Below, one piece after another: positions 27,908 to 49,674 of a stretch of 53,732 nt of DNA. The notes beneath the pieces were generated by a model. That model was not told the DNA's origin. It searched no databases and saw only the letters and a list, made by a program, of their open reading frames with translations. The translations under genes were made by a program, and so were the position numbers. Each line of letters begins with the position of its first letter. Position 1 is the stretch's first letter. This DNA is from Candidatus Methylomirabilota bacterium (GTDB taxonomy: Bacteria > Methylomirabilota > Methylomirabilia > Rokubacteriales > CSP1-6), in assembly GCA_036002485.1 (NCBI GenBank), contig DASYTI010000218.1, positions 1-53,732 of the forward strand. Reading direction: 5' to 3'.

Positions 27908-28510
27908 ATGCCAGTGCAAATCGTCGAGTACGGCGACTATCTCTGACCGTGGTGTTACCCGGCGGCCGTGCGCCTCCGGCGACTGAAAGACGAGATGGGT
28001 GACGACCTCGTGATCCAGTGGAAGGCCTTCCCGCTGCGCCCCGAGCCTGATCCCACGGTGGCCTTCAAGGGCACCTACCGCGAAGAGGGCTGGCGTCGCT
28101 GCGGCGCCATGGCCGCCTCTGACGGCATCACCTATACTCCCTGGCCGCGCGAGGACTACCCGAACTGGTCGCTCCCGGCCCTCGAGGCCGCGAAGTGCGT
28201 TGCCCTCCAGGGCTCCGAGGCCTTCGATCGCCTGCACCTCCGGCTCTACGAGGCGTTCTTCAGCCGCAGCATCAATATCGCGAAGCCGGACGAGCTGCTG
28301 GGTGTGGTCAAGGAGACGGGCGTGGACATGCCACGTTTCGTGGCGGACTGGGAAAGCGGCGCCGCCCGAGAGGCGGTGGGCCGCGACTATGAGGACGCGC
28401 TGACGCGCGACAGGGTGCGCGCCATCCCCACCATCATCGTGGAAGGCGGGCGCCGCCTCACCGGCCTCGTAGATCTGCCCACCTATAGAAAGGCGATCGA
28501 AGAGGCGTAG
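27908..28510 (+). CDS. DsbA/FrnE-like oxidoreductase with selenocysteine at the active site (TGA recoded)
   Basis: Reading from ATG 27908, codon 13 is TGA (27944-27946), and the same frame then continues without a stop to TAG at 28508-28510 (200 residues). The context is VEYGDYL-U-PWCYPAAV: family members have CPWC there, so TGA replaces the attacking Cys of the CxxC motif, giving U-P-W-C. The rest is a typical DsbA/FrnE thioredoxin-fold protein (WKAFPLRPE, helical insert, cis-Pro in RAIPTIIVEGG). No other start could give the intact fold. A hairpin at 27959-27979 suits a SECIS. No signal peptide is visible, so it is probably cytoplasmic. Sec is inferred; selA/selB are not in the window. Confidence 0.82.
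27959..27979 (+). promoter_or_regulatory. Candidate bacterial SECIS hairpin of the DsbA-like gene
   Basis: Starting 12 nt after the UGA: CCGG, one C/U mismatch, GGC, loop CGUGC (27967-27971), GCC, CCGG. The loop begins 20 nt after the UGA and has G in its second position, both within known limits for bacterial SECIS elements. The loop and spacing match the candidate in the rhodanese gene. Confidence 0.6.
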
Positions 28511-36145: not shown

Positions 36146-37348
36146 ATGATCTCGGTCCGCGACGCGCAGGCCCAGGTCCTGGCCAGGATCACTAGTGTTG
36201 CGTCCCCCGAGATCGTCCCGCTGGCCAGCGCGCTCGGTCGTGTCCTTGCCGAGGACGTTCGCGCCGAGATGGACGTACCCCCCACGGACAATTCAGCCGT
36301 GGACGGCTATGCCGTTGCCTCCTCGGATGTCCCCGCCACGGGCACACGCGCATTCGACGTCGCCGCCGAGCTGGCCGCGGGAGCGGTCTTCTCCGGCACC
36401 CTCGAGCCGGGTCAGGCCCTTCGCATCATGACGGGGGCGCCCATGCCGGCCGGCGCCGACACGGTCTATCCCCAGGAAGTCGTCACGCGCGAGGGTGAGC
36501 GCATCACGGTGGGCTCCATCGCACCCGGAGCGAACCGGCGCCTGCGCGGCGAGGATGTGGGCGCGGGCCAGATCGTGCTCCCCGCGGGCAGCGTCCTGCG
36601 GCCCCAGGAGATCGGCGTGGCCGCCTCCCTTGGTCTCGCGCAGCTCTACGTCAGACAGAAGCCGCGCGTGGCCGTGCTCTCGACCGGGGACGAGGTTGCC
36701 GAGCCTGGATCGCCGCGCAAGTCTGGGCAGATCTACGACTCCAATCGCTTTTCCCTGCGCGGCCTCCTCGAGGCGAGCGGCGCCGAGATCGTGGATGACG
36801 GCATCGTGCCGGACCAGTTCGACGAGCTCCAGTCACGCCTTCTCCGGGCCTCCGAGTACGCGGATATCGTGTTGACCTCGGGTGGCGTCTCCGTGGGCGT
36901 TCACGACCTCGTGAAGGCCGTCCTCCAGCAGGCCGGCGGCATCGACTTCTGGCAAGTGGCCATGCAGCCGGGACGGCCCATGGCCGTGGGGAGTATTGGC
37001 CGCGCGCACTTCTTCGGCCTGCCGGGCAATCCGGTCGCCTCCATGCTGACCTTCCACCTCTTCGTGCGGCCGGCCCTCTGGAAGCTTGCCGGTCGACGCG
37101 ACCTCTTCGTGACACCCTTTCGCGCCCTCGCCACGGAGCGCATGAGCAAGCGGACGGGACGCCGCGAATTCAAGCGCGGCATCCTGACCTTTGCTCACGA
37201 CCGGTGGGAGGTGCGCACCACGGGCCCCCAGGGTTCGGGCATACTGACCTCCATGACGGCCGCGAATTGCTTCGTGGTGATCGAGGAGGCGCGCGGCGAC
37301 GTGGCCGCGGGTGAGCCTGTGTGGGTCGAGCCCTTCACGCCCTGGTAA
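36146..37348 (+). CDS. moeA: Molybdopterin molybdenumtransferase MoeA
   Basis: The 400-residue protein has the MoeA N-terminal domain (ALGRVLAEDVRAEMDVPP, NSAVDGYAV, IMTGAPMPAGADTV), the MoCF domain (VAVLSTGDEV, YDSNRFSL, LTSGGVSVGVHDLV, FFGLPGNPVA) and the C-terminal domain (GSGILTSM, ANCFVVI). It inserts molybdate into molybdopterin-AMP, the last step of Mo-cofactor synthesis. The ATG at 36146 is set by the family start and the -10 box. tldD follows after 13 nt. No other moa/mog genes are in the window. Confidence 0.94.
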   Translation: MISVRDAQAQVLARITSVASPEIVPLASALGRVLAEDVRAEMDVPPTDNSAVDGYAVASSDVPATGTRAFDVAAELAAGAVFSGTLEPGQALRIMTGAPMPAGADTVYPQEVVTREGERITVGSIAPGANRRLRGEDVGAGQIVLPAGSVLRPQEIGVAASLGLAQLYVRQKPRVAVLSTGDEVAEPGSPRKSGQIYDSNRFSLRGLLEASGAEIVDDGIVPDQFDELQSRLLRASEYADIVLTSGGVSVGVHDLVKAVLQQAGGIDFWQVAMQPGRPMAVGSIGRAHFFGLPGNPVASMLTFHLFVRPALWKLAGRRDLFVTPFRALATERMSKRTGRREFKRGILTFAHDRWEVRTTGPQGSGILTSMTAANCFVVIEEARGDVAAGEPVWVEPFTPW

Positions 37349-37361
37349 GCCCCCTCCCCTC

Positions 37362-38933
37362 ATGCCTTCCGCCATCCGCACCGACCTGATCGACGGCCTG
37401 AAGCCGCTCGTGAGCGATCTCGCCATGGGCTATGCGCGCCGGCTGCCGCATCTCGCGTATGCCGATATCCGGCTCGAGATCGGCGAGGGAAAGTACGCCT
37501 CGTCCGAGAACGGCGCCTCCAAGAGCTCCGGGGAAGACACGGCGCTGGCCTTTGGCATCCGGGTGCTCGCGGGCGACCGCTCGATCGCCCCCGGGTATTT
37601 CGGCCGCGGGCTGGGCGAGGCCGACCTCTCCCGCATAGAGGCCGTGCTCAAGGAAGGGCTCGAGGCCGCCTATCGACGCGCCGTGGCCAATGCCGACGGG
37701 AAGGCGGAGGCGCGCGGCAAGTTCGGCCCGTTGGGCGAGTCGCTTGCCGATACGCGATTGCATCCGATCCGCATCTGCCAGGACACCGTGCCCGCGGTCT
37801 ACGAGATGGACCCGCGCGCGGTAGACCTGGGCGCCATGGTCCGGTTCACCGAGGAGATCTCGCGGCGGATCAAGGCGACCGAGCCCGTGGTCGGCTTCAA
37901 CTACATCTCGACCATGACCCAGCTTTCGCGCGAGCTTTTCGCCTCGTCCGAGGGCGCCCTCATCGACCAGGCCTTCGCCCTCACGCAGGGCATGTGCTAT
38001 GTCGTGGCCAGCGGCACCGGCAACAGCCAGGAGCTCTACGACGTCGTCGGCCATCAGCGGGGCTGGGAGATCCTGGAGCGCGGCGTGGACGATCCGCTCA
38101 TGCCCTTTCCTCCCTTCCCCGCCTTCGCCCTCGCCATGGCCCGCGAGGCCGCCGAGCTCGCCGCCGCGCCATCGCTGCCGAGCCTCGAGGGCGAGGTGAC
38201 CGTGGTCACCGACCCCCACTACAACACGCTCGTCTCCCACGAGATCATCGGCCATCCCATGGAGCTCGACCGCGGGCTCAAGATGGAGACGGCCTATGCG
38301 GGACGCTCCTGGCTGCTCAAGGACCTCGATGACACCCAGGTCGGTCGCCAGATCGCTTCCCCGCTCGTCTCGGCCTTCTCGGATCCCTCGCTCCCCGGCT
38401 ACGGGCACTACACGTACGACCACGAGGGCACGCCCGCTCGGCGCGTGGCGCATATCGACCGGGGCATCTTCAAGGGCTTCATGAACAGCCGCCAGACCGC
38501 CGCGATATTCGGCGGGGAGCCCAATGGCCACTGGAAGGCGACCGAGGCGCCCCTCGTTCCGCTCATCCGCATGTCCAATACGGTGTTCGACGGGGGCGAC
38601 CGGGACCCCGCGGAGATCATCAAGGAAGTCGATCACGGCTACTACCTCGTCGGCCACAAGACACCGTCCATCGCGGAGAGCCGGGAGAACTTCCGGATCT
38701 CCGCCCGCAAGGTGTACGAGATTCGCCACGGGCAGCTGGGGCGCCTGTATCGAGATGGCGGCATCATGGCCGACAGTCGAGACTACCTCATGAAGGTGGA
38801 CGCCGTCGGCCGTGACTTCCGACTCTATCCCATTCCGAATTGCGGCAAGGGACAGCCCATGCAGACCAAGAAGCTCGGCAATGGCGGCCCCACCATGCGC
38901 AGCCGCGCCATCCTCACGGGAGGCCAGGGCTGA
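37362..38933 (+). CDS. tldD: TldD-type metallopeptidase subunit
   Basis: The 523-residue protein is the catalytic half of the TldD/TldE (PmbA) protease. It has the zinc motif HEIIGH (H293, E294, H298), followed by PMELDRGLKMET and the GYGHYTYDHEG region. The complex degrades unfolded peptides and matures modified peptides. The ATG at 37362 is the first plausible start after moeA. Its partner is encoded at 39571, separated by a repeat and a rhodanese gene, so the two subunits are probably co-expressed. Confidence 0.9.
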   Translation: MPSAIRTDLIDGLKPLVSDLAMGYARRLPHLAYADIRLEIGEGKYASSENGASKSSGEDTALAFGIRVLAGDRSIAPGYFGRGLGEADLSRIEAVLKEGLEAAYRRAVANADGKAEARGKFGPLGESLADTRLHPIRICQDTVPAVYEMDPRAVDLGAMVRFTEEISRRIKATEPVVGFNYISTMTQLSRELFASSEGALIDQAFALTQGMCYVVASGTGNSQELYDVVGHQRGWEILERGVDDPLMPFPPFPAFALAMAREAAELAAAPSLPSLEGEVTVVTDPHYNTLVSHEIIGHPMELDRGLKMETAYAGRSWLLKDLDDTQVGRQIASPLVSAFSDPSLPGYGHYTYDHEGTPARRVAHIDRGIFKGFMNSRQTAAIFGGEPNGHWKATEAPLVPLIRMSNTVFDGGDRDPAEIIKEVDHGYYLVGHKTPSIAESRENFRISARKVYEIRHGQLGRLYRDGGIMADSRDYLMKVDAVGRDFRLYPIPNCGKGQPMQTKKLGNGGPTMRSRAILTGGQG

Positions 38934-38954: not shown

Positions 38955-39108
38955 CCCCCTCACCCTGCCCTCTCCCCCACTGGGGGAGAGGGATTCAAGC
39001 ACGTTGATGCGCCCCTCTCTTTCATCCTTCTCCCCCATCGGGGGAGAGGGCCGCCGTTCGAGATGAGCGGCGAAGCCGCGAGGCGAGGGCTGAGTAGATG
39101 AGGGGGCG
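38955..39108. repeat. Palindromic repeat family A (A8), overlapping the rhodanese start
   Basis: CCCCCTCACCCTGCCCTCTC hairpin, spacer, TTCTCCCCCATCGGGGGAGA hairpin, then the right arm with GGCGAGGGCTGAGTAGATGA and GGGGGCGG. The ATG of the rhodanese gene (39098) is the ATG inside the arm's GTAGATGAGGGGG end, so the first codons of that gene are repeat sequence. Confidence 0.82.
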
Positions 39109-39517
39109 GTTCTTCGCGGCGCTCCTCCTCGCGACGGCGATGCTGTGGGCGGCCCCGGCCCCGGCCGATGATCCGGAGGTGCCGGAGAAGTACGTCTCCG
39201 TAGAAGCGGCCAAGGCGCTCGTGGACAAGCGGCAACGTGTCGTCTTTGTCGATGTGAGAGAGAAGCCGCAGTACGACGATCTCCACATCAAGGGCGCCAT
39301 CAATATCCCGCTCGACTCCATGCGCGGCCGTCTGCGCGACATCCCGCGTAAGGACTTCGTCGTCCTCTACTGAGCCTGCCCTCATGCCCTGGCCCGTGCG
39401 GCCTACCGGACGCTCTACCAGGCCGGCTACCGGAACATGGCGATTCTCGACGAGGGCATTCCCGGATGGACGGAGAAGCGCTATCCGACGGCTGTCACCG
39501 TGGCCCGGCGGCCCTAG
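39098..39517 (+). CDS. Periplasmic rhodanese with selenocysteine at the catalytic position (TGA recoded)
   Basis: The frame from ATG 39098 meets TGA at codon 92 (39371-39373) and then continues open to TAG at 39515-39517, 139 residues in all. Before the TGA is a signal peptide (about 1-23) and a rhodanese N-half (VSVEAAKALVDKRQ, VFVDVREKPQYDDLHIKGAI cut at its end, DFVVLY). After it is ACPHALARAAYRTLYQAGYR and LDEGIPGW, the C-half. Rhodaneses have the persulfide-bearing Cys directly after VLY, so TGA sits exactly there. The start codon comes from a palindromic repeat. It lies between tldD and tldE. Sec is inferred; an inactivating mutation is the alternative. Confidence 0.8.
39391..39403 (+). 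promoter_or_regulatory. Candidate bacterial SECIS hairpin of the rhodanese gene
   Basis: GGCC, loop CGUGC (39395-39399), GGCC. The loop starts 21 nt after the UGA, against 20 nt in the DsbA-like gene, and the loop sequence is the same. The stem is only 4 bp with no clear extension, so it is weaker than the other candidate. Confidence 0.5.
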
Positions 39518-39570: not shown

Positions 39571-41130
39571 GTGCCGGCCCTGTCTGATCTCGCTCGCGCC
39601 GTGGGTGAAGGTCTCGCCTTCGTGCGGGCTCAGCCCGGCGTGCGAGAGGTCGAGATCTTCGTGGCGGAGAACCGTACCCTTCTGACCCGGCTCAACTACA
39701 CCTCGCACATCCCCTGCAATGGCGTGGAGGAGCCGAAGAGCGCCGAGATGTATGGCGTGGGCATACAGGCCGCCTTCGACTCGCCCGACGGCGTCCTCAT
39801 TGGCTTCGGATCCGAGCCCAGCGATCTCTCGACCGCCGGCATGCGACGGGCCTTCGACAAGGCGCGCCAGGGGGCGGTGCGGGATCCCGAGTTCCGCTCC
39901 CTGCCCCGACCGGGAGGAGCGAAGCGCGAGCTCTTCGACTATCACGATCCCGCCCTGCTCGCCCTCAGCGATGCGCAGCTCGTCGAGTCGGGGTGGAAGG
40001 TGCTGCAAGGCGGGCTCCGCGCGTTTCTCGCCTCCGGTAGCCTGGCCGAGCTCGCGGGCTCGGAGGCCGAGCTTCGCCGGCTGGGCCTCATCCTGGGTGG
40101 CGATGTCACCATCGTCCAGGAATCCATGGCCATTGCCTCGAGCCATATGCCCGAGGCCCAGACGGATGTGTCCACCCCCATGATGGGCTTCGTGACGGCC
40201 ATGGTGGAATCGCGGGAGGCCAAGGGCTCGGGCTGGTCCACGGGCACGCGGCTCGATCATTTCACCGACGAGGCCGGCGTGGACGCGGCCCGGCGGGCCA
40301 TCGAAGCCATCGGCGGCGAGCGCATCCCATCGGGCGACTACACGGTGATCTTCGGCCGGCAACCCGTCGCGGATCTCATGAACAACCTGGTCGTCCCCTC
40401 CTGTCAGGCGGGCTCCTTCTATTCCTCGAGCACGCACTTTCTGGGTAAGCTCGGCCAGCTCGTCGCCTCGCCGCGACTGTCCATCTACGACCACGGCGCC
40501 ATGCCGGGCTTCATGGGCTCCAAGGGCATCACCTGCGAGGGGCTGCCGACCGGCCGCACGGACCTGATCAAGGAGGGAGTCTTCACGGGCACCCTCACCA
40601 ACTGGTACGAGGCGCAGCGCCTCCTCCACGACCCCGAGCTCAAGGTGAAGCTCGGGGTGGACGCGGCGGCCGCCGCGCCCGCCCTCGTGGCCCGCAACGG
40701 CTTTCGCTATACGGGGGGCGGCGGGCGCGCCTTCGATACCTCGCCCGAGACCGCGGCCTCCAATATCATCGTCGAGGGCAGCGACCCCGTTGCCCTCGAC
40801 GAGCTGATCAAGAGCGTGTGCGACGGGCTCTACATCGGCCGCATCTGGTACACGTACCCCATCAACGGGCTCCGTGCGGGAGACTTCACTTGCACCGTGG
40901 TGGGAGACTCCTTTACCATTCGCGACGGGCGCATCGCGGCGCCCCTCAAGGCCAACTGCGTGCGGATCAACGACAATATCACGAGGCTGCTCACGCACAT
41001 CGCCGGCATCACCAAGGACCAGCGCGGCACTCTGGTGTGGGGCGTCGATGAGGTCGTCTACACGCCCGAGATCGCCGTCACCGGCGTTCACGTCGATGCC
41101 ATCGCGGGCTTCATGGAGGCAACTGACTGA
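39571..41130 (+). CDS. TldE/PmbA-type metallopeptidase partner subunit
   Basis: The 519-residue TldD/PmbA family protein lacks the HExxxH motif and therefore corresponds to the non-catalytic TldE/PmbA partner. Typical segments include PEAQTDVSTPMMGF near the middle and NGFRYTGGGGRAFD and GDSFTIRDGRIAAP toward the end. GTG 39571 is the first start fitting the N-terminus; no good Shine-Dalgarno is seen. It would complete the protease with the tldD product. The stop shares one base with the transketolase ATG. Confidence 0.88.
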   Translation: MPALSDLARAVGEGLAFVRAQPGVREVEIFVAENRTLLTRLNYTSHIPCNGVEEPKSAEMYGVGIQAAFDSPDGVLIGFGSEPSDLSTAGMRRAFDKARQGAVRDPEFRSLPRPGGAKRELFDYHDPALLALSDAQLVESGWKVLQGGLRAFLASGSLAELAGSEAELRRLGLILGGDVTIVQESMAIASSHMPEAQTDVSTPMMGFVTAMVESREAKGSGWSTGTRLDHFTDEAGVDAARRAIEAIGGERIPSGDYTVIFGRQPVADLMNNLVVPSCQAGSFYSSSTHFLGKLGQLVASPRLSIYDHGAMPGFMGSKGITCEGLPTGRTDLIKEGVFTGTLTNWYEAQRLLHDPELKVKLGVDAAAAAPALVARNGFRYTGGGGRAFDTSPETAASNIIVEGSDPVALDELIKSVCDGLYIGRIWYTYPINGLRAGDFTCTVVGDSFTIRDGRIAAPLKANCVRINDNITRLLTHIAGITKDQRGTLVWGVDEVVYTPEIAVTGVHVDAIAGFMEATD

Positions 41131-49248: not shown

Positions 49249-49674
49249 CGCTCTCCTCCTTCTGGTTCGACGCGCCCCTGGATCCGCAACATTGCGTTGT
49301 CCAGAGCTGGGAGTCCCCTGGGCGCGGCGGTGACGAAAGGAGCAGTAACTCCGTTGGTGCGACGAGTCAAGGCGCGACGCGGCTTGTCGTTATAGAGGCG
49401 CATCCGAAGATCACCAGCGAGAAAATACGTGGTGGACTGGACGGTGACCACGCGCTAGCTGCCCGCGCGTCTCTCCCCTGACGCCGCTCCGCTTCGGGGG
49501 CGAGCAAGACCGGGGAAGCGGCAAAAACCCGTTGCCGCGCGAGGGCCCCGCCAGGACACGAACAGGAGCGATGAGGCCCGCGCGGACGTCCAGTCCAACG
49601 GGATTCTACACCGGCTTCCGAGGCTCCCGCCAGCGAGCTCGCTTTGCAGCATCGAGGTCACCCCGCATGATGCA
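49249..49674. other. Intergenic region upstream of the Tat amidohydrolase
   Basis: No gene is seen. On the minus strand a TTGACT lies near 49365, about 115 nt before the start codon, with only a weak -10 (TTACTG) 16 nt further on. It may be the promoter region of the Tat amidohydrolase. Confidence 0.4.

Follow-up and report, generated by a model that had tools for sequence, protein, structure and literature searches.

The rhodanese locus

The window, 53,732 nucleotides from the genome of a soil bacterium, constitutes contig C218 of its own assembly (G000; 4.45 Mb, 253 contigs, 95.7% complete). It carries a short rhodanese gene with an in-frame TGA between two peptidase genes, and a second TGA-containing gene, DsbA-like, lies 11.4 kb upstream of the rhodanese (Table 1). 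The rhodanese frame holds a single internal stop and translates as MRGRFFAALLLATAMLWAAPAPADDPEVPEKY...VVLY ahead of it and as ACPHALARAAYR...LDEGIPGWTEKRYPTAVTVARRP behind it; the codons end at 39514 and the terminator is TAG at 39515-39517. The original prediction had placed a TGA at codon 92, directly after VVLY, and translation reproduced both the coordinates and the codon number exactly. It had also described an intact C-terminal half of a rhodanese running on to the TAG, which agrees with the Pfam domain found to span the read-through product (PF00581, Rhodanese; E 3.6e-18, 66.3 bits vs a cut-off of 22.2), aligned over residues 35-126 with profile positions 2-101 of 102. An AlphaFold model of the protein, computed with a two-sequence alignment as input, is of low confidence (pLDDT 48.7).

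Table 1. Features of the rhodanese locus and of the companion gene; positions refer to the window.
Feature	Position	Strand	Basis
DsbA-like gene, predicted selenoprotein, U-P-W-C	27908..28510	+	PF01323, E 5.6e-21; TGA at 27944-27946
tldD-like peptidase gene (PmbA/TldD family), upstream neighbour	37311..38933	+	Pfam; conserved neighbour
Rhodanese gene, predicted to contain Sec	39098..39517	+	ATG to TAG, 139 aa with U92; read-through translation and Pfam match, TGA in 39 genomes
Putative N-terminal signal peptide MRGRFFAALLLATAMLWAAPAPAD	39098..39169	+	By-eye reading; orthologues similar
In-frame TGA, proposed Sec92, U-x-C position 1	39371..39373	+	Codon 92; invariably TGA (39/39 genomes), whereas CxC homologues have TGC
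Cys94 codon (TGC), U-x-C position 2	39377..39379	+	Cys in 39/39 genomes
Proposed bSECIS hairpin core, codons +6 to +11	39387..39407	+	Synonymous constraint peak; local fold
pmbA-like peptidase gene (PmbA/TldD family), downstream neighbour	39571..41130	+	Pfam; conserved neighbour

The order and strand tldD - rhodanese - pmbA recur in 36 of the 39 genomes that carry the gene; of the other three loci, one is truncated where its contig ends and two are located elsewhere. TldD and PmbA are normally cytoplasmic whereas the rhodanese looks exported, and we therefore interpret the linkage as co-transcription, with no shared function known. A literature search on tldD together with rhodanese returned no relevant paper. 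Elsewhere in the window, at 49464-49541 on the reverse strand, lies a match to the CyVA-1 RNA (RF02965; 50 bits vs a gathering score of 41.4 in Rfam).

Conservation of the TGA codon

A profile search of 95 genomes of the phylum located the gene in 39, including the own genome, all from one family of Methylomirabilota ("Candidatus Rokuibacteriota"); Rokubacteria correspond to Methylomirabilota under GTDB naming. In every one of them the equivalent of codon 92 is TGA and a Cys follows at +2, within the motif Y-U-x-C-P-H. Among 60 genomes, the own one and its relatives, 24 besides the window's have a close homologue that contains exactly one TGA, and translation places it at the same point of the motif [LF]Y-U-[TAG]-C-P-H-A-L in each. 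Six distant homologues (L060-L063, L142, L143) have Cys (TGC) at this position, in the form Y-C-x-C, so that at the start of the rhodanese active-site loop the UxC clade has TGA (Sec) where these homologues have Cys. In the alignment the TGA falls on a residue that is otherwise always Cys, as had been proposed for the catalytic Cys, and chance, which the original prediction considered a poor explanation, is ruled out because 39 genomes share a single TGA at this codon. All UxC sequences group together in a maximum-likelihood tree (support 100/99), and no Cys form was seen within their clade. Because these sequences form one clade, the simplest reading would be that Sec arose once at the first seat of the motif and has been retained since.

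We propose that the gene encodes selenocysteine at the catalytic position through the in-frame TGA and is thus a Sec-rhodanese, a reading that rests on sequence and to which we assign a probability of roughly 0.93. Selection on the downstream part was a suggested check of the original prediction, and in the comparison of the window with its nearest relative, G004, this part is under purifying selection with no sign of relaxation (pN 0.022, pS 0.268; dN/dS 0.07 after the TGA vs 0.15 before). In one pair (L041/L046) the ratio after the TGA exceeds 1, on 10 changes, and some close pairs have too few substitutions to show purifying selection there; the mean pN/pS over all pairs, based on an ungapped upstream alignment, is a rough guide only.

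The DsbA-like gene bears on the earlier argument that two unrelated redox families within 12 kb each have a TGA on the catalytic Cys. A TGA also recurs among its homologues: by TGA count, nearly all close DsbA-like homologues, from more than 25 relatives, contain one. The gene belongs to DsbA-like form 1 (PF01323, UxxC; PMC13188914), a family different from the rhodanese, and judged from these data it is a real selenoprotein. Both genes share a contig in several genomes, about 8-12 kb apart (G001:C68, G008:C342, G009:C123, G020:C44, G022:C42, G030:C59, G035:C115), and the two selenoprotein genes in 12 kb therefore represent a conserved neighbourhood.

Motif forms and proposed chemistry

The phylum-wide profile search yielded four variants of the C-x-C motif in Methylomirabilota rhodaneses, namely CxC, UxC (the present gene), CxU and the double-Sec UxU. 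Y-C-x-U occurs in L130, L131, L134, L139, L140 and L141, and two TGA codons, giving Y-U-T-U-P, in L064 (genome G048), L132 (G047), L133 (G068), L135 (G050), L136 (G049), L137 (G055) and L138 (G066). The latter are short, apparently double-Sec rhodaneses with F/L-Y-U-T-U-P from seven genomes in two other families of the class. In L130, L131, L134, L139 and L140 the C-T-U rhodanese domain ends a longer, membrane-protein-like frame of about 320-380 aa; these frames resemble NF041203, and L130, which was tested, scored below its cut-off. None of the six rhodanese sequences tested against NCBIfam passed a cut-off (0/6).

The rhodanese motifs catalogued in PMC13188914 (2026) are UxxS, UxxG, CxU, UxxG and UxxxxU; neither UxC nor UxU is in its prokaryotic selenoprotein catalogue, and NCBIfam holds no model for UxC. 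The best NCBIfam match of the present protein is rhodanese_LYCAU (NF041203; form 3, CxU, in PMC13188914), with which it shares the rhodanese domain and a Sec-holding Y-[CU]-x-[CU] motif. At 55 bits vs a cut-off of 115 it is not a member, however; Sec is second there and first here, and the CxU sequences from the same phylum form a clade separate from UxC in the tree. Rhodanese-like forms 1, 2 and 4 (PF00581; UxxS, UxxG; PMC13188914) likewise have Sec in the active-site motif, but as described in that catalogue they differ from U-x-C-P-H with its nearby Cys, here in a single-domain, exported protein encoded between tldD and pmbA. The rhodanese/DsbD fusion selenoprotein TsoB (NF045694, UxxxxU) also has a rhodanese domain with Sec, yet its model is a fusion of 572 positions against which the present protein scores only 31 bits vs a cut-off of 805. 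The UxC rhodanese is thus a new Sec-motif form among the known rhodanese selenoproteins, and its biochemical function is inferred.

The product would be a rhodanese of one domain, exported to the periplasm, with Sec in place of the persulfide-forming catalytic Cys. In the likeliest chemistry, which we hold to be probable if by no wide measure, the nucleophile is Sec92; it would attack a persulfide, a disulfide or an oxidised sulfur/selenium compound, the likeliest being periplasmic species of these kinds, and Cys94, two residues on, would then resolve it through a selenenylsulfide (U-x-C). Since relatives have Sec in either or both seats, a working Sec/Cys pair is favoured over a lone sulfurtransferase nucleophile. 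With such chemistry the protein would be a thiol/persulfide redox enzyme more than a classical thiosulfate:cyanide sulfurtransferase. For the wider group we lean, with similar caution, towards Sec having entered one or the other seat of the catalytic pair, or both, in a redox-paired rhodanese branch with selenenylsulfide or diselenide chemistry that would be distinct from the classical sulfurtransferases.

It is also conceivable, though we consider it rather unlikely, that this selenoprotein is a classical sulfurtransferase or a selenium carrier in which Cys94 is only structural, an alternative that concerns the chemistry and not Sec insertion. The rhodanese domain and the persulfide-forming position of Sec agree with it, as do the other rhodanese selenoproteins whose listed motifs lack a partner Cys (UxxS and UxxG; PMC13188914), but Cys94 is invariant, and the CxU and UxU forms of relatives suggest that both positions take part in the chemistry.

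Proposed decoding of the TGA and its consequences

Incorporation of Sec at the UGA would be achieved by SelB and Sec-tRNA-Sec, aided by a SECIS hairpin located in the reading frame shortly after it. Synonymous conservation was scaled to the codon usage of the flanking tldD and pmbA genes and is given without a p-value, as related sequences are not independent; the excess reaches its peak in the gene, 0.83, at codons +6 to +11 after the TGA and averages 0.12 outside the hairpin region, which is where a bacterial SECIS hairpin would lead one to expect a peak. Across the 39 genomes Leu+6 is always CTG and codon +7 is GCC or TCC throughout; all 38 Arg+8 codons are CGG or CGT, none being CGC (59% in the background), the single Ser+8 is AGT, and Gly+9 is GGG in 37/37 (background 20%). 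The constrained bases match the hairpin CTGGCC-CGG/T-GGGCCAG, in which the loop starts 21-22 nt after the TGA and contains G followed by G or U; in the window's copy GGCC and GGCC enclose the loop CGTGC, which begins 21 nt after the TGA.

In the published bSECIS model (PMC13188914, Fig. 2) the loop comprises 3-9 nt with a G in its first two positions and lies 16-37 nt after the UGA, and all 25 aligned copies have N-G-[G/U] 21-22 nt after the UGA. The model also sets an upper stem of 4-16 bp and a minimum free energy at or below -7.5 kcal/mol; the local hairpin energy is -8 to -19 in most copies, whereas the window's copy and that of G004 reach -6.6 with 4 bp, and in neither of these is the proposed hairpin the predicted minimum-energy fold. 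A rival consensus hairpin uses partly the same bases, and compensatory changes or covariation, which were sought in the hairpin, were not found. A SECIS hairpin at codons +6 to +11 is thus well motivated but not proved.

A genome search for Sec machinery, raised with the original prediction, gave a divided answer: selA, true selB and tRNA-Sec were not found over cut-off in the 95.7% complete own assembly, while the Sec form of SelD is present in it and the full cluster in genomes of the same genus. This SelD (L076; G000:C51:43396-44334) has a TGA at its catalytic site, TSYAACAGU; a second selD-like gene lies at G000:C54:11480-12397 and has no TGA. The best tRNA-Sec score in the assembly is a subthreshold 42.9 bits (Rfam), and the eight subthreshold matches examined proved to be ordinary tRNAs, among them those for Leu, Trp, Ser, Arg and Gly. 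The SelB-like matches are by their score (103.9 bits vs a cut-off of 242) other translation GTPases. Across the genomes searched, selA exceeded the cut-off in 56 of 60, and tRNA-Sec with anticodon TCA scored 68-71 bits (Rfam) in the same-genus genomes G001, G002 and G004. The gene order in G001 is selB, selA, tRNA-Sec. When the 17-kb stretch of G001 that carries this cluster was aligned to the own assembly, contig C193 was found to start about 2.2 kb past the end of tRNA-Sec, while the cluster itself had no convincing match; a match on contig C84 near selB, by eye a short TatA-like stretch, was rejected as synteny. The corresponding stretch of G004 gave short scattered matches only. Because a contig edge adjoins the expected cluster and the same assembly contains a Sec-containing SelD, the best reading of the missing selA, selB and tRNA-Sec is an assembly gap.

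The missing genes are also what speaks for the TGA being a real stop, the gene then being a pseudogene or encoding a truncated protein of 91 residues after the species lost its Sec machinery. We regard this as improbable: SelD is kept in its Sec form, the contig break adjoins the expected Sec cluster, the downstream frame is intact with low pN against G004, a synonymous pattern compatible with the hairpin is retained, and the TGA is unchanged in 39 genomes, with selA in nearly all relatives searched. Less probable still, to the point of being very hard to sustain, is that TGA codes for Trp, Cys or Gly, by reassignment or by read-through independent of Sec machinery, a reading for which no support was found. 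TGA is the normal stop of neighbours such as tldD, which it ends at 38931-38933, and the genome is therefore not recoded; moreover, relatives have the standard Sec machinery and the TGA falls exactly on the catalytic Cys. A sequencing or assembly error that made TGA from TGC or TGT, conceivable for a window from a single MAG and considered a poor explanation by the original prediction, is refuted by recurrence, as 39 separate genomes, from more than 20 genera, show this TGA.

Reading the TGA as selenocysteine has a direct bearing on annotation, as gene finders would take codon 92 as a stop and a standard annotation would cut short this conserved gene throughout the group's genomes. The occurrence of CxC, UxC, CxU and UxU in one domain is a natural series for testing what Sec contributes in each seat of a redox motif. 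As cited in PMC13188914, a 2026 paper predicted that a Methylomirabilota MAG carries 63 genes for selenoproteins, and the present rhodanese may be among them. The UxC rhodanese adds to the view of Rokubacteria/Methylomirabilota as unusually rich in selenoproteins.
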